A stretch of DNA of 20,868 nt from a virus: the IMG/VR virus record IMGVR_UViG_3300021511_000031, positions 1 to 20,868 of that record, one strand, 5' to 3'. Of the stretch, positions 1-12,935 are shown one piece after another (the first letter of the stretch is position 1; each line of letters opens with the position of its first letter). A model generated the notes under the pieces. It did no database searches. It was not told the origin of the DNA and worked only from the letters and a program-made list of their open reading frames with translations. Made by a program: the position numbers and the translations under genes.

Positions 1-239
1 TATACACCGTTGTCATTCCATAACTTTTTACGATCTTTATATTGCATCTTAACTAATTGTGAGTTAGGAACTTTAATACAATGCAATCTGAACATACCGC
101 TTATATATTCAATCCATATGGATGTTAATTCGGTTAAATCAATTATCTCTTTACCATTCCATCTTAATCTTTCCAAACCAACACCTTTAGGTAAAGAATC
201 AACCGTAACACTACCAATAGACGATATTTTTTTTATCAT
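1..239 (-). CDS. Partial unknown tail-distal protein (cut by left edge)
   Basis: An open minus-strand frame runs from an ATG at 239 off the left edge of the window, giving 79 residues beginning MIKKISSIGS. It is rich in beta-type residues and contains LPKGVGLERLRWNG and KVPNSQLVKMQYKDRK. An alternative in-frame ATG at 257 would add six residues (MIYNHD) and overlap the stop of the upstream gene. Neither start has a convincing Shine-Dalgarno sequence at normal spacing; an AGAGGA lies about 20 bases before the 257 ATG. The gene directly follows the coiled-coil gene at 247-720 in the same orientation, so it belongs to the same late tail transcript. I do not recognise the family. The plus-strand frame over the same bases is a shadow. 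Confidence 0.6.
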   Translation of the reverse strand, partial: MIKKISSIGSVTVDSLPKGVGLERLRWNGKEIIDLTELTSIWIEYISGMFRLHCIKVPNSQLVKMQYKDRKKLWNDNGV

Positions 240-246
240 ATCATGA

Positions 247-720
247 TTATATATCATTATTTTCAATTGTTAATATGTCCTCTTGTTTAATTTGTTTTAC
301 TTCAACTGCTTTTTCGGATAATATTTTAATTGATTTTTCAGCTTGTATCATTATATTAGCAATAGCAGCCATTCCTTGTTTTAAATCTTTTAATTCTTCA
401 GTTAATTTTAATATTGTATTTGATTGTTTGTCCTGTGTTTCTTGTATACCTCTATTACTTGCTTCATAATGTGGTAAATAACGTATCCACCATATAGGTA
501 AATATTCTTTTTCTTTTTTTAATTCAGGTGTTGCTAATGGCATTCCTGTTTTTTCATCCCTTCGTTTTTCATAAGTAACTTCAATTGTTAATGCTTCTTG
601 TATTGCTTCTGATACTATTTGTTTAATTTCTTCTTTGGTTTTTTTAGTCATTGTTACTTCAATTGTTAATGCTTCTTGTATTGCTTCTGATACTATTTGT
701 TTAATTTCTTCTTTGGTCAT
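247..720 (-). CDS. Coiled-coil protein with duplicated N-terminal repeat, unknown function
   Basis: This 157-residue protein follows the three fibre-like genes. I chose the ATG at 720 (MTKEEIKQ) over a longer frame to 786 because a good ribosome binding site (aaggggaag) sits just before it, in the 17-base gap after the upstream stop. The N-terminus is a 26-residue unit, TKEEIKQIVSEAIQEALTIEVT, present twice in tandem and predicted helical. A linker contains a tryptophan pair (LPIWWIRYLPHYEASNRG). The C-terminal third is a likely coiled coil with heptad-like hydrophobics (ILKLTEELKDLKQGMAAIANIM). There is no signal peptide, and the membrane potential is weak. By position it could be a tail-fibre assembly or attachment factor, but that is inference from neighbours only. 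The duplication is described separately. Confidence 0.7.
   Translation of the reverse strand: MTKEEIKQIVSEAIQEALTIEVTMTKKTKEEIKQIVSEAIQEALTIEVTYEKRRDEKTGMPLATPELKKEKEYLPIWWIRYLPHYEASNRGIQETQDKQSNTILKLTEELKDLKQGMAAIANIMIQAEKSIKILSEKAVEVKQIKQEDILTIENNDI
578..717 (-). repeat. 78-bp tandem duplication inside a gene
   Basis: Bases 578-639 and 656-717 are identical over 62 bases at a period of 78 bases (26 codons). The duplication stays in frame and doubles an N-terminal helical unit. The lack of any base difference suggests a recent event or ongoing expansion and contraction. Confidence 0.9.
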
Positions 721-737
721 TTTTATCTTCCCCTTTT

Positions 738-1376
738 TTATATATCTGGATGTTGTAATGTTCCAACACTCGCTAATGGTCTCCATGATAAACCATGATT
801 ATGTGATGAATTACTACCAACAGATGCATGTGTATGTGCCCCTCCTATGTTTGTATTTTTAGTTACATGACCAGCAGAGGTTTGAGATGTTGTCCCATAA
901 TGATAACTACCACCAGTAGTTACTAATATAGCGTGTGTATGTGCTCCTGTTTCACCGTGGTCATGAGTAGGTATTTCATCTTCAACTAAAGTATGGTTTG
1001 ATGTTGTCCACGTTCCAGCTTGTGTTCCCCCCGAAACATTGTAATCATTTGAACCACCCTTTAGTGCTAAAACTACATCATAAACAGTAGTATCAATTTT
1101 CCAACCATTTCTCGCAATTTCTTCAAAAATCCATATCTTGGTATTAGTATTTCCATACATAACACCTAACCAATTATCATTAGCAACATTTCTTATCTTT
1201 AATATTTTCTTTGTAGTATCAAACCAAGGCATACCGGCAACATTTGTTGGTAGTGGTATTGAAGTACTTCCAGAAAACATTGAACGTAAACATTCAAAGT
1301 TATTTTCAAATTTTTCAAGGTCTAGGTACCCCTCATTAGTAGTTATATATGAATTAATTGTATAATTTTGTGCCAT
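738..1376 (-). CDS. Fibre-like tail protein, paralogue 1 (HxH-containing C-terminus)
   Basis: This 212-residue protein is one of three tandem paralogues. The shared N-terminal part (about residues 1-75) starts MAQNYTIN and includes ENNFECLRSM and GMPWFDTTKKILKIRN. A central part diverges, and the C-terminal part is Gly/Ser/Thr-rich with four HxH motifs in two pairs (THDHG and AHTHA; AHTHA and SHNHG), ending WRPLASVGTLQHPDI. Paired HxH motifs are known in phage fibre tips such as T4 gp37, where they coordinate metal along a trimer axis, and in tail-collar-like proteins. A receptor-binding or fibre-tip role is inferred from that and from position after the J-like tail-tip gene. The start is supported by GAGG seven bases upstream. 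A 92-bp tract is nearly identical to paralogue 3. Confidence 0.75.
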   Translation of the reverse strand: MAQNYTINSYITTNEGYLDLEKFENNFECLRSMFSGSTSIPLPTNVAGMPWFDTTKKILKIRNVANDNWLGVMYGNTNTKIWIFEEIARNGWKIDTTVYDVVLALKGGSNDYNVSGGTQAGTWTTSNHTLVEDEIPTHDHGETGAHTHAILVTTGGSYHYGTTSQTSAGHVTKNTNIGGAHTHASVGSNSSHNHGLSWRPLASVGTLQHPDI

Positions 1377-1386
1377 TTATTACCTC

Positions 1387-2031
1387 TTATAAGTTAGGAT
1401 ATTGCAAAGTCCCCACTGCTGCTTTTAATCTATATGTTGTTCCACCATGACTATGTGCATCATTACTTGATTTACCATAAGCATTATGTGTATGATTCCC
1501 CTGTGAATCTGTTATGTGATACCCACCTTGTGAATAACTATTAAATCCTCTTGAAGTTGTTTGACCGCTACCAACATTATAATAACAATCCATAGTATGT
1601 GTATGGTCTGATGATGCCCCGTGGTCATGAGCAGGTATTTGTGATAAAGATAATGTACAACCCGGCATTGTCCATGTTCCTGCAACAGAACCACCAGTGG
1701 TATATGTTGACCCACCTTTTAGTACTAAAACTACATCTGTTGGTGGTGAAGGGTCTAATATCCAACCATCTCCCGCTGAATTAGCATAAACCCATAATTT
1801 AGTATTTGAGTTACCATACATAACACCAAGCCATTTAGAATTCAACGAGTTTCGTATTTTCAATAATTTATTTGTAGTATCAAACCATGGCATACCAGGA
1901 ATAGCATTAGCGGGAGCATCACTCCCTGACATCATTGAACGTAAGCATTCAAAGTTATTCTCCATATTTTGTAAATCAGTATTACCAATATGTGATGATT
2001 GATATGAATTAATTTTATAGTTTTGTGCCAT
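1387..2031 (-). CDS. Fibre-like tail protein, paralogue 2 (HxH-containing C-terminus)
   Basis: This 214-residue protein has the same plan as its neighbours: MAQNYKIN start, ENNFECLRSMMSG, GMPWFDTTNKLLKIRN, a WLGVMYGN segment shared with paralogue 1, then PGCTLSLSQIPAHDHG shared with paralogue 3. The C-terminal Gly/Ser/His-rich part has four HxH motifs (HDH, HTH, HTH, HSH) and ends LKAAVGTLQYPNL. The start ATG lies one base from the preceding gene's stop, with gaaggga as the ribosome binding site. Bases 1627-1680 differ at one position from 2267-2320 in paralogue 3, while the 5' tract shared by paralogues 1 and 3 is diverged here, so the three genes are mosaics. A fibre or receptor-binding role is inferred, as for paralogue 1. 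Confidence 0.75.
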   Translation of the reverse strand: MAQNYKINSYQSSHIGNTDLQNMENNFECLRSMMSGSDAPANAIPGMPWFDTTNKLLKIRNSLNSKWLGVMYGNSNTKLWVYANSAGDGWILDPSPPTDVVLVLKGGSTYTTGGSVAGTWTMPGCTLSLSQIPAHDHGASSDHTHTMDCYYNVGSGQTTSRGFNSYSQGGYHITDSQGNHTHNAYGKSSNDAHSHGGTTYRLKAAVGTLQYPNL

Positions 2032-2032
2032 A

Positions 2033-2686
2033 TTATATAATTCCCTTCATATGCTGTCTTGTCCCCACTGCTGCATAAGGTCTCCAATTATTTCCATGAT
2101 TATGTGATTGAGAAAGTCCATCTGAATCATGTGTATGGACTCCACTATTCATTAATACTGATTGAGTATGTGTATTGGTTCCTTTTGAATATGCAGCATA
2201 TGCAGTATAAGTATTAGAAGCATAAACACTTACACCATGTATATGTTCCCCAGCTTCACCATGTGTATGAGCAGGTATTTGTGATATAGATAATGTACAA
2301 CCCGGCATTGTCCATGTTCCAGATTCATTACCACCATCAATATCATAATCTAATCCACCAGTAATTGTTTTTAATGCCAATAATCTATCACCCACAGCGG
2401 TATCTATTGACCATCCATCTTCTTCTGTATTAGAATACATCCACACTTTAGTTGATAATTCAGCAAGAAATACCCCCATCCATGCACTATTAGCATTATT
2501 ACGAATTCTCAAACCTTTTGTGGTAGTATCAAACCAAGGCATACCGGCAACATTTGTTGGTAGTGATATTGAAGTACTTCCAGAAAACATTGAACGTAAA
2601 CATTCAAAGTTATTCTCCATACTCTGTAATTCTGTTTTTACAGTACCAGTTGGTGTAATACAATTTATTGTATAGTTTTGTGCCAT
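2033..2686 (-). CDS. Fibre-like tail protein, paralogue 3 (HxH-containing C-terminus)
   Basis: This 217-residue first member of the tandem trio sits immediately after the J-like gene. It has the N-terminal block MAQNYTIN, ENNFECLRSMFSG and GMPWFDTTTKGLRIRN, then WMGVFLAELSTKVW, PGCTLSISQIPAHTHG and a C-terminal part with HTH, HIH, HTH and HNH motifs, ending WRPYAAVGTRQHMKGII. AAGGA precedes the ATG. It shares near-identical DNA with paralogue 1 in its 5' half and with paralogue 2 in its middle, as expected if gene conversion or unequal recombination has shuffled it. The His-pair arrangement supports a metal-stabilised trimeric fibre tip; this is a family-level inference, not a demonstrated activity. 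Confidence 0.75.
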   Translation of the reverse strand: MAQNYTINCITPTGTVKTELQSMENNFECLRSMFSGSTSISLPTNVAGMPWFDTTTKGLRIRNNANSAWMGVFLAELSTKVWMYSNTEEDGWSIDTAVGDRLLALKTITGGLDYDIDGGNESGTWTMPGCTLSISQIPAHTHGEAGEHIHGVSVYASNTYTAYAAYSKGTNTHTQSVLMNSGVHTHDSDGLSQSHNHGNNWRPYAAVGTRQHMKGII

Positions 2687-2695
2687 TGATTTTCC

Positions 2696-5600
2696 TTATA
2701 TTTTAGTATGTAGTTTTAATGAATAATTTTCTACATAAGCATGTATTTCTGTTGATGGGTCTTCAATCTCTATTTTAACTTTAAAATATCTCCCTGTTAT
2801 AATACCTGATAATATTTCAGCGTTTTTCAGTTCAGACCAACTATCAGTAGTAAATTCTCTATAAAGTATAGTTATATTTACTTTTGGTGCTTCCTCTACA
2901 TCAACTATTTCATTCCAATTTCTACTTGTTATATTTATATCATTCCATGTTGTTTCTGATGGTAAAACATCATCCCAACCATCACCTTCACCAACCACAA
3001 CAATTGAAGCATCTAAATAAACATAGTATTCTTGAGCAGCAACACCTGTATCATATGATGGTGAAATAAATGAACCTGTTAAAACACCAGCTGTGTGTGA
3101 ACATTTTAAATATGCTTCTGAATCATAGGTTATTTTTTCCACATTATCTTTTACATCAGTTTCCCAACCACAAGCACCACCTGATGTTTCTGGTGATATA
3201 TATCCTGATGTGTCATTGATGGAAAAAGTATCAGCACTTCCAACAGCAGTAACACCTTTAACTGTTGTATTAAGTTCTATCATTTGAGTTAAACCTTGAA
3301 AATACACATTATCTCCAACAGCTAAACCGTGAGCCACAGAAGATACAACACCCGGATTTGCTTTAGTAATACCTGTAATATTATTTGCTAATGGAATAAA
3401 TACTTGATAATTAGCATCAGGAACAAATGTATTAGATAATGACCATCCAATAGGTAATGATATAGTAGCGGAAGCTAACTCAGGGTCAATTCCATATATT
3501 CCATTAGTTCCTTTGGTTTCTGCTGAAAAACTATGTTCTCCTGGCTTAACATTAGCTAATGATTCTTGTGGACTTCTTTTAGCTGATAAAAAAACACCAG
3601 TATTCCATGTTCCACCTAATCTAAATTCATATACTTCAATATCAGGGTCAGTTAATTTATCTGAAAATAGGGTTAATGAATTACTACTTGGTATAACAGA
3701 TAAATATGATAAACTTTCTGGTGCATCTGAATTACCAACAATTAAACTTGATAATTTTGGAGCATTATTAAATGTTTCTTTAACTCCATATATACTTACA
3801 GGAATTAAAACAATATAATATTCTTGCCCTTGCTCTACTGGATCTATATTAAAATTATTTGTAGTATTAAATTGATGTACATAATCAGCTTGATCTGGAA
3901 TAGGATCACCATCAATAATCATTGCTTGCCATACTTCAACATGACTAAACCAAGGTTCATTTTCGGACACAGTAAATGTAATATTTAATCTACTAAAAGT
4001 TCTTAATCTGTAGTAATATGTTTCTTCTGTCATTTGAGGATTTTGTATATTAACAACAGTATTTGGGTCAGGTAAATCACAAGTGTAAATTCCTTCTATA
4101 TCAGCATCATAGTCATCATCATATAAATCATAACTTTCATATTGTAGTGAAAGATTGATTAATCCATTACCAGCAAAAGAAGTTGAAACAACTCTCATTG
4201 CTTGGTCACTAATTGCAAGTGCAGTTGAATTTAAAGTTACTAAATCATGTGGTGCTAATTCTAAACAATCATCTCTAAATGTTCCTGAAATACTTCTATT
4301 TAGTTTTAATCTTTCTAATTGATATGTTGCTAAATTACCAACAGTTTCTTTATCTGTATACCCCATTATTGATATATTTTCAACAACACCACCTTCTTCA
4401 CCAACAAGAACATCATCGCTTGTATAATCTTTATCTTTATTATTAAAAGTAGCACGAAGTCCTTTTGGTTTATCAAATCTATTTGGCTGTACTAATCTTA
4501 TTTGTGCTCTACCTTCACCATCTTGAACTATATGTTTATCTTCTATTGTCATTACAGAGGATTCTTCATTTATATCAGCAATTAAAAGATAGTATTTTCC
4601 ATCAAACCAAGATATAGAACCCCTAAAATGTTTCATCATATCTTGTACAATTGACCAAGAATTTTTACTACCTTGGACAACATAATTAAATAACCATCCT
4701 TTACTATCAAAATAATTTGCTGCTGTTGTCCAGCTTGTTTCGTCAATATAATTAGAATCAACATCAAGACCATATTCTTCATCTGTAAAATAATCATATA
4801 AACATAAAACAGCATTTTGTGTCCATTCAATAACAGCAGTAGAATCTCTAAAATCATCTACTTTTTTACCTTTAAAATCTAATATTCTACTTGGGATACC
4901 TCTATATTGATCTTCATCCCAAGTAAACTTCCATCTAATATAAGAAGTAAATCTTTGATTATCCGTCCAATTTGAATCTGCTGTATTTAAATCAGTATCA
5001 TATGTTTGAGTTGATGATCCTGAATAAAATTGATAATCAACAGTTGCTCCAAAATCAGTATAAGGTTTATCATCTATAAGTATTTGATCTACATCATCTA
5101 ATTGATATATACCCTCACATTCACCTTCGCCTAAGTTTTGAATAATATATAATTCTTTATTATGATAACCCATTGTGGAAATATAAACATCATTACCACC
5201 AACTCTTTGTAATCCATATATTACTTTAAGAGGTTCTTTGGTTGACCGAGTATTTAATTGTAATCCTCTTTCTTCTTCTTGTGGTGTATCTGGTATATCT
5301 GGTTGATTAAAGTACGCCCATATAGCAGTAATTAAAGAAATGATTAATCCAATAAAAGCAATCCATGTTCCTGGGTCACACTTAACTATATCACCATCAT
5401 ATAAATAACTATCTTCTTCTAATAATTCAAAATCTTCTGGGTTATCACCTAATTTATAAACAACCTTTGTTATAATTTTTTTAGATTCTTTAAGTCTATA
5501 AACATCAATTATTTTCTTACTTTTTAAACTTAATACTTTAACACCTTTTTGTGTTGTTACTAATATTTTATTATTACCCACAAATACACATGGAACTTTT

Positions 5601-5917
5601 ATATTATCACCAAAATCTACTGATAAAACATCACCTTTTTTCATTTGGTGAGGTGGTATAATTTCACAATAATTAAGAAAATGTTTTTCTACTTCCTTAA
5701 AAACTTCTTTAGGATTTTCACGAAATAAATTTACCACATTATTCCAACTTATATCACCAATTATATTCTTATCAAATTCATAATCTAAATCTAATTCTTC
5801 TTTACAGAAATCTAATGCCATAGAAAGACAATTAAAACCTTCTTCTTTTGATATACCTTCTGGATTAAAGTTTATTCCTGTATATTTATCTGTTATATTA
5901 TATGGTAATTTTTTCAT
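2696..5917 (-). CDS. Tail-tip host-specificity protein, apparent K-I-J fusion
   Basis: At 1073 residues this is the largest protein here. Residues 1-145 resemble an NlpC/P60-type tail peptidase (lambda gpK-like): Cys30 sits where the nucleophile is expected, and GDVLSVDFGDN (95-105) precedes VFVGNNKIL. The position expected for catalytic His (about 108 in KVPCVFVG) is not His, so the enzyme is probably inactive. A hydrophobic helix at 184-203 (TWIAFIGLIISLITAIWAYF) recalls the gpI-like segment. The rest is J-like tip protein, with KVIYGLQRVGG and VDQILIDDKPY early and beta-rich, fibronectin-like modules later. It probably forms the central tail tip that contacts the host. The ribosome binding site is weak (TGGA, far upstream), and translation may rely on coupling to the HNH gene, which ends two bases before. 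Confidence 0.85.
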   Translation of the reverse strand: MKKLPYNITDKYTGINFNPEGISKEEGFNCLSMALDFCKEELDLDYEFDKNIIGDISWNNVVNLFRENPKEVFKEVEKHFLNYCEIIPPHQMKKGDVLSVDFGDNIKVPCVFVGNNKILVTTQKGVKVLSLKSKKIIDVYRLKESKKIITKVVYKLGDNPEDFELLEEDSYLYDGDIVKCDPGTWIAFIGLIISLITAIWAYFNQPDIPDTPQEEERGLQLNTRSTKEPLKVIYGLQRVGGNDVYISTMGYHNKELYIIQNLGEGECEGIYQLDDVDQILIDDKPYTDFGATVDYQFYSGSSTQTYDTDLNTADSNWTDNQRFTSYIRWKFTWDEDQYRGIPSRILDFKGKKVDDFRDSTAVIEWTQNAVLCLYDYFTDEEYGLDVDSNYIDETSWTTAANYFDSKGWLFNYVVQGSKNSWSIVQDMMKHFRGSISWFDGKYYLLIADINEESSVMTIEDKHIVQDGEGRAQIRLVQPNRFDKPKGLRATFNNKDKDYTSDDVLVGEEGGVVENISIMGYTDKETVGNLATYQLERLKLNRSISGTFRDDCLELAPHDLVTLNSTALAISDQAMRVVSTSFAGNGLINLSLQYESYDLYDDDYDADIEGIYTCDLPDPNTVVNIQNPQMTEETYYYRLRTFSRLNITFTVSENEPWFSHVEVWQAMIIDGDPIPDQADYVHQFNTTNNFNIDPVEQGQEYYIVLIPVSIYGVKETFNNAPKLSSLIVGNSDAPESLSYLSVIPSSNSLTLFSDKLTDPDIEVYEFRLGGTWNTGVFLSAKRSPQESLANVKPGEHSFSAETKGTNGIYGIDPELASATISLPIGWSLSNTFVPDANYQVFIPLANNITGITKANPGVVSSVAHGLAVGDNVYFQGLTQMIELNTTVKGVTAVGSADTFSINDTSGYISPETSGGACGWETDVKDNVEKITYDSEAYLKCSHTAGVLTGSFISPSYDTGVAAQEYYVYLDASIVVVGEGDGWDDVLPSETTWNDINITSRNWNEIVDVEEAPKVNITILYREFTTDSWSELKNAEILSGIITGRYFKVKIEIEDPSTEIHAYVENYSLKLHTKI

Positions 5918-5919
5918 AG

Positions 5920-6213
5920 TTAATTATTTTCCATATATATTTGATTTATATTTTTACTAGAGTGAACCCAATTATGACAAGTTTTACATAATGTTGAACC
6001 ATTCCATTCTTCATATCTTAAAGAAGGAAAATCTTGCCATGAATATATATGATGAGCGTTTAATTCTCTGCACCCATTATCACATATTTGACATGTATAA
6101 TTATCTCTTTTAAACACAGACTTCCTCCAATTAATATTTTCACCAGTAAGCTGTGGATGCTTTTTACCTTTATTCCAAGCTGGTTTTGTTCTTTTATAAA
6201 TACCTTTTGGCAT
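5920..6213 (-). CDS. Free-standing HNH endonuclease
   Basis: This 97-residue protein has an HNH fold signature: CQIC (Cys41, Cys44), the AHH pair (His54-His55), Asn71 in EWNGSTLC, then CKTCHNWVH (Cys76, Cys79, His80, His84). The N-terminal PAWNKGKKHPQLTGENINW is a NUMOD3-like DNA-binding stretch seen in phage homing endonucleases. It lies in the gap between the DUF2163 gene and the J-like gene, where lambda-like modules carry a K-type gene, with only two bases on each side. It is most likely a selfish endonuclease gene inserted in the tail module, although small HNH proteins can also assist DNA packaging. The ribosome binding site is GAGGG, inside a GC-rich patch. Confidence 0.9.
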   Translation of the reverse strand: MPKGIYKRTKPAWNKGKKHPQLTGENINWRKSVFKRDNYTCQICDNGCRELNAHHIYSWQDFPSLRYEEWNGSTLCKTCHNWVHSSKNINQIYMENN

Positions 6214-7549: not shown

Positions 7550-9333
7550 TATCTTGATACCCTCCTAATATTTGCATTAAGAGCAGAGTTTCCTCGTTGC
7601 ATTTGTTCATTCATTACTGTTGTAACTGCACTTGGGTTCTGTCTGACAAAATCGACAAATGATTTACTATCCATTGCCATTATATTATAATTGATTTGTG
7701 TTGGTTGTTGTCCACTACCCTGTGCCTTAACTCCGAGTTCACCAGATGATGTTTTAGATAGAGGAAGGATTGCTTCTGGTCCTGCTTCACCCATAAGACC
7801 TTGTTGAAATGATGTTGGTTTAGAAACAATACTATTTGTGAATACACCACCTTTAGCATATTTAGGTTCTGTCTTTGCTATAGTAGCTACATTTGCTAAA
7901 CCCGTAGCAGTAATAATTGCAGCCATTGCTATTCCTGCTGGTCCTGAATATTCAGCTAGTGCATCATTAGCAGCCTTATAAGTTTTAACTGTTGCTTCTG
8001 CTATTGACATTGCTTTCTTTAACTTAAATGTTTTCTTTTCATTTTCTTCACTATCAGAACCAATTCTATCTAACATAGAACCAAAATCACCAAATAAATT
8101 ACCCATTTGACCTAAAAACTGTTGTTGTGTTTGAAACTTCTTTTTCGCAATATTAGCTGCATCTGCTGCTGCTTTATCTTCTATTTTTTTTTCTTTATCT
8201 GTTACAGATTGAATTAATTCAATTCTTTTTTGATTGTATTCATTTTGATCATTGAGATTATTCATCCATGCATCACTATCTTTTTGTGCTAATGCTATAT
8301 GATGTTCATCTTTCATTTGTAGTTCATAAGCATGCATTGCTCTTAAAGCATCTTTGTTCTTTTCAAATTCAGATTCATATGGATTTTTATCTGTTGTAGT
8401 GTCTTCACCCCCAGATGGAATATATCCTTTATAACTGGGACCTCGTTTAGCGGATTCTTCATCAATATATTTTTCAGGTGGACCAAGAAGATATTTATTA
8501 TATTCTTTTCTTAATTCAACCAAATCTTTTAATCTTTTATATGTTGTTTTACTTGGATCTAAAGCAATTAAAAAGGCTTTAGTATAATAATAAATTTTTG
8601 CTGATAAATCTGCCATTTCTTTTGATATTTTTCTTATACCTTCAGCAAATGCATCCCAATCAGCATCATTTAATGTTTGAACTAATTGTGCAAATACAGT
8701 TACTTTAAGAGTTTCTAATGAAGCTCTTAATTTCTCCATATTATCTGTATATTTGGCAAAATTATTTGCTTGTTCAGTTGTTACTGAAGCAGCAGTTTCA
8801 CTTAAATTATTTCTTAAACCAGGTAACATTTTATTCAATTCAGCTGCTGTCATGCCAAATATTTCCATTTGAATAGCTGCTCTTTTTACAGGATTTTCAA
8901 TTTTCTGTGTTGCTTCTGCTAATCTTAAAAATTGTTCTTCAGGGTCTAATTTTGATAATGCTTCTACATCTATATTTAGTTCTTCAAATGCTTTCTTAGC
9001 TGCACCTAAACCTCTTGTAGCAAGACCTATTCTACGTTGCATTCTTTCAATTGAACCAGTAACAATAGTAAATGATACACCAGATAAGTTAGCAATGTGC
9101 TCCATTTTAGATAAAGTTTCTACTGATACACCAAGTTTTAAATTTAACTTATGAAATTTATCACCAAGTTTAACTGTATCATTCATTAATTTAGCAAAAC
9201 CAGCAACAACAGCACCAAGAGCTACAGGACCAGCTATCTTTTTAAGGGCTGAAGTTGTATTATCGCTGAATTTCTTAACAACCTTACTACCTTTATCCTT
9301 AGCTACAATATTTACTTTTACATCTTTAGGCAT
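7549..9333 (-). CDS. Tail tape measure protein
   Basis: The 594-residue tape measure protein occupies the tail lumen and sets tail length. Evidence: position after the frameshifting chaperone gene, a basic N-terminus (MPKDVKVNIVAKDKGSK) followed by the hydrophobic stretch IAGPVALGAVVAGFAKLM, long helical regions, an Ala/Lys-rich coiled coil near residues 355-405, a second hydrophobic segment (GPAGIAMAAIITATGLANVATIA), and the typical C-terminal QQGLMGEAGPEAILPL. At about 0.15 nm per residue this predicts a tail near 90 nm, shorter than lambda. The ATG overlaps the stop of the frameshift product (taATG), and its ribosome binding site (GAGGA) is within that upstream frame. Confidence 0.92.
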   Translation of the reverse strand: MPKDVKVNIVAKDKGSKVVKKFSDNTTSALKKIAGPVALGAVVAGFAKLMNDTVKLGDKFHKLNLKLGVSVETLSKMEHIANLSGVSFTIVTGSIERMQRRIGLATRGLGAAKKAFEELNIDVEALSKLDPEEQFLRLAEATQKIENPVKRAAIQMEIFGMTAAELNKMLPGLRNNLSETAASVTTEQANNFAKYTDNMEKLRASLETLKVTVFAQLVQTLNDADWDAFAEGIRKISKEMADLSAKIYYYTKAFLIALDPSKTTYKRLKDLVELRKEYNKYLLGPPEKYIDEESAKRGPSYKGYIPSGGEDTTTDKNPYESEFEKNKDALRAMHAYELQMKDEHHIALAQKDSDAWMNNLNDQNEYNQKRIELIQSVTDKEKKIEDKAAADAANIAKKKFQTQQQFLGQMGNLFGDFGSMLDRIGSDSEENEKKTFKLKKAMSIAEATVKTYKAANDALAEYSGPAGIAMAAIITATGLANVATIAKTEPKYAKGGVFTNSIVSKPTSFQQGLMGEAGPEAILPLSKTSSGELGVKAQGSGQQPTQINYNIMAMDSKSFVDFVRQNPSAVTTVMNEQMQRGNSALNANIRRVSR

Positions 9334-9982
9334 TAGTCTTTTTTCCTCATTGATTGAATTGCTGCTTGGAGTGATACTACTATCTTCTGGGTTATATCTT
9401 TTCTGTGTTCATTTGGGACATCTTCAATATCAAGAACAAGTTTTATAGCATCTGCTTGAATAGAATCTTCTTTCAATAACATAGTTGAATATTTTTCTAT
9501 TAAACCAAATACATAATAATTATCTGGAAGTATTTCTACATATCCACACTTCTTACAATCGGGGATTCTATCAGATGGATTTTTTCTATTACTGCTTATC
9601 TTAATACACTGCTCACAGGATACTTTATTTTTATCATATACCCACGTGAAGTAATCTACTAGGTTTTTTTTTCAATAATCTTATCTTTATCTTCAGCTGA
9701 TTTATTTATAACAAACATCATAATACTTTCAGAATAATCAAATAAAAATTTCTTATTTTCAGTGTTGCATTCTAATGGTTTGTCATCTTCACCATTAATA
9801 CCCTTCCAATCTACAACACAGTAATCAAATATCTTGAAAAACGATTCTACTTGATCATTCTTAGCAATTGATGTTCTTATAACGTTATGAGATACAGGAA
9901 AAGGTCTTATCTTAAACGATACACCCTTAGCTTCTTTGAACTCGATCCATTTAGCTTCTATTAATGATTTATTTATTTTCAT
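9333..9982 (-). CDS. Tail assembly chaperone, -1 frameshift product (gpGT-like, two CxxC knuckles)
   Basis: The zero frame (start 9982) stops at 9659, but a second frame is open from the slippery run down to 9333 and ends exactly at the tape-measure start. Slipping back one base at 9665-9671 gives 106 + 110 = 216 residues. The added part begins NLVDYFTWVYDKNK, carries CEQC and CKKC 16 residues apart (a possible zinc-binding pair), and ends with an amphipathic helix IVVSLQAAIQSMRKKD. It has no ATG until residue 62 of its own length, so separate initiation would discard most of it. Known G/GT pairs in siphophages work as tape-measure chaperones through this arrangement. The frame is read directly from the sequence; use of frameshifting is inferred from family precedent. 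Confidence 0.8.
9659..9982 (-). CDS. Tail assembly chaperone, zero-frame product (gpG-like)
   Basis: This 107-residue protein lies between the tail tube and the tape measure, the standard place of lambda gpG-type chaperones. It starts MKINKSLIEAKWIEFKEAKG with AAAGGAG upstream, contains VSFKIRPFPVSHN and FDYCVVDWKGINGED, and ends IIEKKT at an amber stop directly after nine adenines. Most ribosomes should make this form, and a minority the longer frameshifted form. The family is short and poorly conserved, so the assignment rests on size, acidic and helical character, location and the slippery 3' end. Confidence 0.82.
   Translation of the reverse strand: MKINKSLIEAKWIEFKEAKGVSFKIRPFPVSHNVIRTSIAKNDQVESFFKIFDYCVVDWKGINGEDDKPLECNTENKKFLFDYSESIMMFVINKSAEDKDKIIEKKT
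9664..9672 (-). promoter_or_regulatory. A9 slippery run for -1 programmed frameshifting
   Basis: On the minus strand the codons read gaa aaa aaa acc tag. The heptamer A AAA AAA (9671-9665) allows both tRNAs to re-pair after a one-base backward slip. The new frame then reads aac cta gta and stays open for 110 codons. Confidence 0.8.
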
Positions 9983-10003
9983 TTTAAAAACTCCTTTTAA
10001 CTG

Positions 10004-10417
10004 TTATGATTTATGAACTGCACCATGAAATCTAAAGTCAACAGAAATTTTTATAATGTCATTTGCTGTTGCTGTTACTGCAAAGTTTGTAAAATAAACT
10101 CCAGCATCAGCATCACTACCTATATCAGATGACCAATAAGTTGTATCATCTGTATATAATTTAAAATTAGTAATCTTTGTTCCATTTAAAACAGCACTCT
10201 CAATTACTATTTGACCTGTTGAATCATCTGGATCTAATAGACCACTCAATGATCCACCTGCAGCCTTTATGCCCTGACCTGCAACTACCGACCAAGAGTC
10301 CCCAAATGTTGCTTCTTCAAGCAATGGTGATTCAATAGTTAAACTATAATCAACCATCTTTAGAATAGTATGACTTCCTAACACACATTTTGCTGATTTG
10401 CCTGTGTATACACTCAT
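10004..10417 (-). CDS. Major tail tube protein
   Basis: This 137-residue protein is placed just before the tail chaperone pair, as tail tube genes are in siphophages. The sequence is beta-rich and low in complex motifs: MSVYTGKSAKCVLGSHTILKM, ATFGDSWSVVAGQGIKAAGG, SGLLDPDDSTGQIVIESAVLNG and a C-terminal strand series ending DIIKISVDFRFHGAVHKS. Similar plans (FGDSW..GQ, then a GSLSGLLD turn) occur in small tail tube proteins that stack as hexamers around the tape measure. AGGAG precedes the start. It is probably one of the most abundant late products. Assignment is by size, composition and order. Confidence 0.75.
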   Translation of the reverse strand: MSVYTGKSAKCVLGSHTILKMVDYSLTIESPLLEEATFGDSWSVVAGQGIKAAGGSLSGLLDPDDSTGQIVIESAVLNGTKITNFKLYTDDTTYWSSDIGSDADAGVYFTNFAVTATANDIIKISVDFRFHGAVHKS

Positions 10418-10538
10418 TGTTTATACTCCTATTTTGTTACATAAATTGTAACATTATATTATTATCTATTTGTTTTTTTATTTGATAATGTTTTATTAAT
10501 GATTTCTTCTTTTATTTATTCTTTGTTATCTTCTGCTA
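10418..10538. other. AT-rich intergenic gap with short inverted repeat
   Basis: This gap of 121 bases between the tail terminator and tube genes has no plausible gene. It contains a 6-bp inverted repeat with 5-base loop (gttaca/tgtaac, 10436-10452) just ahead of the tail tube ribosome binding site. On the minus strand it also holds aacaaatagataataata, a weak relative of the recurrent AGAACAAA element. It may carry a promoter for the abundant tube protein, but this is uncertain. Confidence 0.3.
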
Positions 10539-12257: not shown

Positions 12258-12935
12258 TTAAGATCGTTTCTTTCTTTTAATCCACGCTTTTTTAACTCCT
12301 TCACTTATCTTTTTTCTAATATCTTTATCTTTAGCAGGATTATTATCACCGGTCATGTCTGGTCGTTTTATTCCTTTATTTATATCTTTACATGATTTTC
12401 TAATATTTGCTTTATGTTCTTCAGAAAGAATCCCACCTTTTTTCGCCTCAGTCATTCTTCTTCTAGTTTTCTTTGTAAATGGTTTTCGTTTCTTGCCTTT
12501 TAAATTACTGCTTATTCTCTTTATTCTTTTATCTGTTTCTTTAGTAAGTCCCTTAGACCAAGATGGTTTCGTTTTCGGATTTTCTTTGAAATAATCCAAC
12601 ATAACATTACTCATTTTCTCACTCCAACCTTCTGGAGGGTTCCATGTATAATTACTATCTCCGCCTGTTGTAAGATTATAACCATTCTTTCCAAATGTAT
12701 CATAATATCCAATATAGAATACTTCTAATTGATTTAACTTTTCTCTACTATCAGTTGTATCTATAACTTCCCATTTGAAATTTTCAGATCCATATACATT
12801 TATAGCTTTATGAAAATAAAATTTTGGTTTTTTTGAATCATGTAAATGCTCTCTTATTCTATATTTCAATGGGCCTATTGTTTGTCCAATATAACTCTTT
12901 CCGTTTAACAAGTTTGTTGCCTTGTAAATTATCAT
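12258..12935 (-). CDS. GIY-YIG homing endonuclease with NUMOD-type DNA-binding tail
   Basis: This 225-residue protein is a free-standing phage endonuclease. The N-terminal GIY-YIG nuclease spans residues 1-92: IYKATNLLNGKSYIGQT gives the two signature halves, Arg26 or Arg28 is the likely catalytic Arg, Glu71 (NQLEVFYIG) the metal-binding Glu, and YNLTTGG closes the domain. The C-terminal half is very basic with NUMOD3-like units (KPSWSKGLTKETDKRI, KKRKPFTKKTRRRMTEA, SEEHKANIRKS, GDNNPAKDKDIRKKISEG). It interrupts the head operon between capsid and connector. The ribosome binding site (GAGAGG) lies in the loop of a small ctaat/attag stem directly before the ATG, which may limit its translation. 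It is likely a selfish element targeting related phages lacking it. Confidence 0.93.
   Translation of the reverse strand: MIIYKATNLLNGKSYIGQTIGPLKYRIREHLHDSKKPKFYFHKAINVYGSENFKWEVIDTTDSREKLNQLEVFYIGYYDTFGKNGYNLTTGGDSNYTWNPPEGWSEKMSNVMLDYFKENPKTKPSWSKGLTKETDKRIKRISSNLKGKKRKPFTKKTRRRMTEAKKGGILSEEHKANIRKSCKDINKGIKRPDMTGDNNPAKDKDIRKKISEGVKKAWIKRKKRS

Follow-up and report, generated by a model that had tools for sequence, protein, structure and literature searches.

Conflicting shared tracts among three tandem tail-fibre-like genes of an uncultured phage suggest gene conversion within the array

The window, i.e., the whole stretch of DNA analysed here, is the complete IMG/VR record IMGVR_UViG_3300021511_000031, a linear fragment of 20,868 bases with 31% G+C. 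Its minus strand carries a head and tail module (terminase, portal, protease, capsid, tape measure, a DUF2460-like protein and a gpJ-like tail-tip protein), which is followed by three fibre-like genes, designated P3, P2 and P1 from the first to the last of the array (Table 1). The first-pass annotation had reported three tandem fibre-like paralogues at 738–2686, and the ORFs indeed lie there, all on the minus strand and each with an SD-like sequence upstream (AAGGAAAA for P3, AAGGGAA for P2 and AGAGGT for P1). Fibre genes are also found directly downstream of gpJ in all relatives examined (L007, L021, L009, L040, L126, L027–L030 and the isolated Roseobacter phage CRP-406). The NlpC/P60-like and gpJ-like parts are fused in a single ORF in the window and in L027 (1017 aa), while they are separate ORFs in L007, L021 and L126. 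On the other side of the array, the conserved downstream gene contains, near its start, a 78-bp in-frame tandem duplication (575–652 and 653–730; core of 71 nt at 96%), the unit being single in the homologues of L027, L029, L007 and L126. Two endonuclease ORFs complete the picture: a free-standing HNH endonuclease among the tail genes, probably a homing-type insertion, and a GIY-YIG endonuclease between the capsid and connector genes.

Table 1. Coordinates of the fibre array, its shared tracts and variable tips, and neighbouring genes in the window.
Feature	Positions	Strand	Description and evidence
Conserved downstream gene	250..720	-	157 aa from ATG at 720; after the fibre gene(s) in relatives too
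P1, third fibre gene	738..1376	-	212 aa; ORF and family alignment
P1 variable tip	789..974	-	four His-X-His motifs; motif scan and tip blast
Tract 1, P1 part (anchor)	1213..1304	-	91/92 identical to 2523-2614; holds an insertion common only to P3
P2, second fibre gene	1387..2031	-	214 aa; ORF and family alignment
P2 variable tip	1441..1638	-	four His-X-His motifs; motif scan and tip blast
Tract 2, P2 part (neck GTWTMPGCTLS.SQIPAH)	1627..1680	-	53/54 identical to 2267-2320
P3, first fibre gene of the array	2033..2686	-	217 aa; directly after the gpJ-like gene; ORF and family alignment
P3 variable tip	2090..2275	-	four His-X-His motifs; motif scan and tip blast
Tract 2, P3 part (neck)	2267..2320	-	P3 codons 123-140
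Tract 1, P3 part (anchor)	2523..2614	-	P3 codons 25-55
gpJ-like central tail-tip protein, with N-terminal NlpC/P60-like part	2696..5917	-	1073 aa; PHROG_31 (E=6.7e-34), PF13550, synteny
HNH endonuclease ORF	5920..6213	-	PF01844 (E=8.5e-6)
GIY-YIG endonuclease ORF	12258..12935	-	PF01541 (E=2.8e-5)

Family alignments, computed from 28 and then 49 relatives, define an N-terminal anchor (consensus MxQ.......TDLQNMENNF..LKS.FSG..AP...AGM.WFDT...LK.RN...AW), a neck (GW.VD...D.VLA.KGGS...GG..AGTW) and, after a variable part, a C-terminal motif WRPAAAVGTLQYLDL. P1–P3 are laid out accordingly: an anchor made of a helix followed by GMPWFDTT...LKIRN...W, the neck GTWT...IPAH, a variable His-X-His tip and a C-terminal WRPxAAVGTLQ. 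The neck of P1, SNHTLVEDEIPTH, resembles the alternative HTL-type neck of other members. The three tips all differ from each other (39–45% aa where blastp aligns them), that of P1 being nearer to the tip of L004 (49%) than to those of P2 or P3. The four His-X-His repeats of each copy depart from shuffled sequences (p 0.004–0.023), and H138 and H140 are invariant across the 49 members. The same motif is known from the iron-binding tip of T4 gp37 and from marine phage fibres (PMC11705849); as in the gp37 needle, it is repeated in the distal part of P1–P3, but these proteins have no detectable homology with either gp37 or gp12.

Several members of the family match tail or tail fibre families in PHROG (best E=7.1e-11), most of them weakly, and member L013 matches, at the level of the anchor only, a gene of CRP-406 annotated as “putative tail fiber”, located at the same position after gpJ. 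Searches with the fibres of the window were less productive: tblastn with P3 against annotated phages and a scan with P3 alone yielded no viral relative, Pfam, NCBIfam and PDB sequence searches returned no family, and a PDB chain profile search retrieved neither gp37 nor gp12, its best match being a “Tail fibers protein” at E=0.043. An AlphaFold monomer model based on the 49-sequence alignment was poor (pLDDT 65), and Foldseek found no fold below E=0.001. The same anchor precedes unrelated C-terminal bodies in other contigs, as expected for an attachment domain; it also occurs in metagenome-assembled genomes (MAGs) labelled Deltaproteobacteria and Proteobacteria (L109, L110 and L112), labels that give a hint of the hosts of the wider family. 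Taken together, P1–P3 are best regarded as putative short tail-fibre (adhesin) proteins of a siphophage-like virus, presumably acting as fibres of the virion, in which the variable tip would bind the receptor.

Of 93 non-redundant loci, six hold a tandem array, with two copies in L009 and L040 and three in the window, L007, L021 and L126; the other 87 are single-copy, the counts being minima for some single-copy loci that stop near a contig end, where further copies may be missed. Identical copies are thus not a fixed feature of the relatives, which are mostly single-copy and vary in copy number and in their tips. In a tree inferred from codons 1–136 (L126 left out), the copies of each array cluster together and those of the window cluster with the single-copy L008, which means that arrays arose more than once or that copies were kept alike within genomes; trees of the anchor or the neck only have too few columns for resolving array histories. 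Overall, the copy nearest to L008 is P2 (56% aa). As the copies of the window are about as distant from each other as from L008, their duplication appears to be old. In a further locus (L162, positions 8515–10498), two genes in tandem (411 and 246 aa) have nearly the same anchor but C-terminal bodies unrelated to each other, which suggests that the anchor can duplicate and acquire new bodies.

Over most of their length, P1–P3 are only about 50–70% identical, and two tracts depart from this background. The first-pass annotation had described both, a 92-base tract linking P1 to P3 and a 54-base tract linking P2 to P3, each with one mismatch (at positions 1256 and 1647, respectively) and each diverged in the remaining copy; our alignments reproduce these observations. 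In whole codons of tract 1, P1 and P3 are identical at 91/93 sites, compared with 68/84 for P1–P2 and 67/84 for P2–P3. In tract 2, P2 and P3 share 53/54 sites and the other two pairs 34/54 each. L008 is no closer to the P1–P3 pair in tract 1 (60/84 and 61/84) than to the third copy (60/87). Furthermore, tract 1 includes an insertion absent from the other 26 of the 28 aligned members, which makes it a derived state, since only P1 and P3 have it. The longest exact words shared by the copies are 48 and 33 nt; exact repeats of at most 48 nt make an assembly mix-up of the array unlikely, and all three ORFs are intact. All comparisons nevertheless rest on single assembled contigs, one per phage.

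At face value, such tracts might be slowly evolving stretches under functional constraint, without any recombination, especially as anchor and neck are conserved across the family. To account for this, conserved columns were controlled for by running a GENECONV-like permutation (200,000 permutations) on the variable sites of P1–P3 only. The tract shared by P1 and P3 was never matched (0/200,000; p<=5e-6), that of P2–P3 reached p=7e-5 and the best of P1–P2 p=0.01, so that divergence is not uniform along the genes, whether judged by alignment or by permutation. Silent codons are identical as well within each pair (26/27 in tract 1 and 15/15 in tract 2) and, taken alone, still give p=1e-4 for P1–P3 and a modest p=0.023 for P2–P3. 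When the same permutation was applied to 249 triples drawn at random from the single-copy members of the family, one pair was found at p<=5e-4 in 11/249 triples and two pairs in 0/249, these controls being somewhat more diverged than the window copies (median best pair of 53% nt vs. 61–65%). A four-taxon test on the order of 74 informative sites, with L008 as the outgroup, did not detect significant clustering (p=0.19), a result that could be read in favour of constraint, but the test has low power because L008 lies about as far from the copies as they do from each other. Constraint would also have to explain why identity is specific to one pair, while the third copy and L008 differ at 20–40% of sites within the same stretches, and why the insertion of P1 and P3 is missing elsewhere. 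The identity of silent codons largely refutes this explanation, which we consider barely credible. Recombination among P1–P3 is thus well supported by these comparisons.

A similar conflict is seen in one other triple array. In L007, the first and third copies share a neck tract (codons 101–123, p<=5e-6), whereas the second and third have a common C-terminal flank (codons 177–183, p=5.6e-4). Neither L021 nor L126, which are triple arrays too, contains two conflicting tracts (best p of 0.017 and 0.24), which indicates that conversion is not universal.

Between related phages, it is the tip that changes. We compared 22 pairs whose anchors have an identity of 75% or more; some members belong to several pairs, so that not all pairs are independent. 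In 20/22, a similar anchor (75–96%) goes with a divergent tip (24–59%), most often altered in length, and with last 13–16 residues that are near 100% identical, while 2/22 keep their tip. Consistently, blastn alignments of several loci (L033/L133, L035/L133, L074/L075 and L017/L033) break at the neck, around codon 104–126, and resume near the C-terminal motif. In some pairs, fast divergence of the tip is possible, but replacement is likelier, given that lengths changed and flanks stayed nearly identical. The first-pass annotation had proposed that receptor-binding regions are shuffled between conserved anchors; this holds in the wider family, between related phages, but finds no direct support among P1–P3, for which the shared tracts correspond to anchor and neck and no tip is common to two copies.

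The clearest evidence that conserved flanks serve as exchange points is the comparison of L016, which has one fibre gene, with L040, which has two, on backbones 89–90% identical at the nucleotide level. Homology of the fibres ends around codon 104 and returns in the last ~16 codons, the 5' part of the L016 gene matching the first copy of L040 and its 3' end matching the second copy, with a different tip in between. This change in copy number, with its junctions at conserved flanks, fits simple unequal crossing-over in which copies misalign and no conversion takes place, as do the existence of arrays of one to three copies and the 78-bp tandem duplication adjoining the array; the tracts of the window do not fit it. 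After a single crossover, identity would indeed extend as far as the end of the gene or across into the following copy, whereas both tracts are short and bounded on both sides by sequences ~50–70% identical. Hence, of the two mechanisms initially put forward for the patchwork, gene conversion or unequal crossing-over, recombination as such is upheld, and the second in its simple form is very improbable as the origin of the tracts. Gene conversion, or a double exchange, fits better, precisely because diverged sequence flanks each tract on each side.

Alternatively, the copies might stem from recent duplications, their diverged parts having been imported from other phages and the 92- and 54-base tracts being what remains of the original duplicate. 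The frequent replacement of tips between phages of the family goes in this direction, as do the HTL-type neck of P1 and the proximity of its tip to that of L004. Yet, several separate imports per gene would be required, all ending at the same short tracts; moreover, the identity of P1 and P3 in the anchor tract does not extend upstream, even though the segment there belongs to the anchor too. We therefore hold this scenario to be unlikely, albeit the most serious of the competing explanations.

Other mechanisms known to diversify fibres find no support within the 20.9-kb fragment. Regarding a diversity-generating retroelement, no reverse transcriptase was found in the Pfam-scanned ORFs of this linear fragment. 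As for an invertase-driven fibre switch (Mu Gin or shufflon type), all copies are in direct orientation, positions 1–4000 contain no long high-identity inverted repeats, and there is no site-specific recombinase among the scanned ORFs of the fragment.

According to our preferred interpretation, to which we assign a probability of roughly 0.77, the array combines an old duplication with later gene conversion in the anchor and neck of the tandem fibre genes, in a family where tips behave as cassettes. One fibre gene would have been duplicated long ago to give a tandem array; later, homologous recombination (gene conversion) would have transferred short stretches from one copy to another wherever similarity sufficed. 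Anchor and neck would be the sites of these transfers, hence the conflicting tracts, and the putative conversion postdates the divergence of the copies. Across the family as a whole, the tip is replaced as a cassette between conserved flanks, at which copies are also gained or lost. Gene conversion is presumably the exact mechanism, and altered adsorption or host range a plausible result.

A close parallel is the distal tail-fibre locus gp37/gp38 of T-even phages, where Tetart et al. (1996 and 1998, cited in PMC6466182) reportedly found that adhesin specificity is swapped by recombination at conserved short motifs; duplications of the fibre adhesin are likewise said by these authors to alter or widen host range. 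In both cases, a variable tip lies between conserved motifs and can be replaced while both flanks are kept (20/22 pairs here). However, exchange in T-even phages takes place between phages and in one long fibre gene, whereas here the genes are short and in tandem, and the tracts would pass within one genome.

Tandem amplification of tail-fibre sequence, with a variable copy number, has also been observed in EfV12-phi1, in which a duplication within the tail-fibre gene occurred during coevolution, its copies being near identical and without diversification (PMC6365445); in contrast, the copies studied here are separate genes, old and diverged. Fragment exchange in receptor-binding proteins is common to our family and to the domain-mosaicism survey of Smug et al. 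2023 (PMC10684548), where these proteins are presented as hot spots of exchange between phages, and whose abstract and outline do not mention conversion within a tandem fibre array. Likewise, the abstract of a study of Ackermannviridae (PMC11414711) describes a branched complex made of several tail spike proteins; one phage thus encodes several receptor-binding proteins (putative in our case), but, unlike tail spikes, the short paralogues of the window share an anchor and a C-terminal motif. In the literature searched, whose coverage was limited, we found no account of complete fibre genes in a tandem array undergoing conversion, which is weak evidence of novelty. Hence, adhesin mosaicism as a route to altered binding is known, and what appears new here is its context, tandem genes of an apparently undescribed fibre family.

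It is tempting to go further and to regard the tandem copies as a within-genome archive, from which conversion between copies, together with tip replacement between the anchor and neck on one side and the C-terminal motif on the other, would continually make new adhesins in one phage population. We see this as a doubtful extension, but, if true, such an archive would resemble the antigenic-variation cassettes of bacteria, in a phage. Whatever its fate, our analysis defines an apparently undescribed fibre family of uncultured phages, which offers a compact natural system for adhesin variation within one genome, with short genes, clear anchors and one to three copies. Since arrays recur and conflicting tracts are found in at least two independent phages, intragenomic fibre recombination would be directly testable with long reads.
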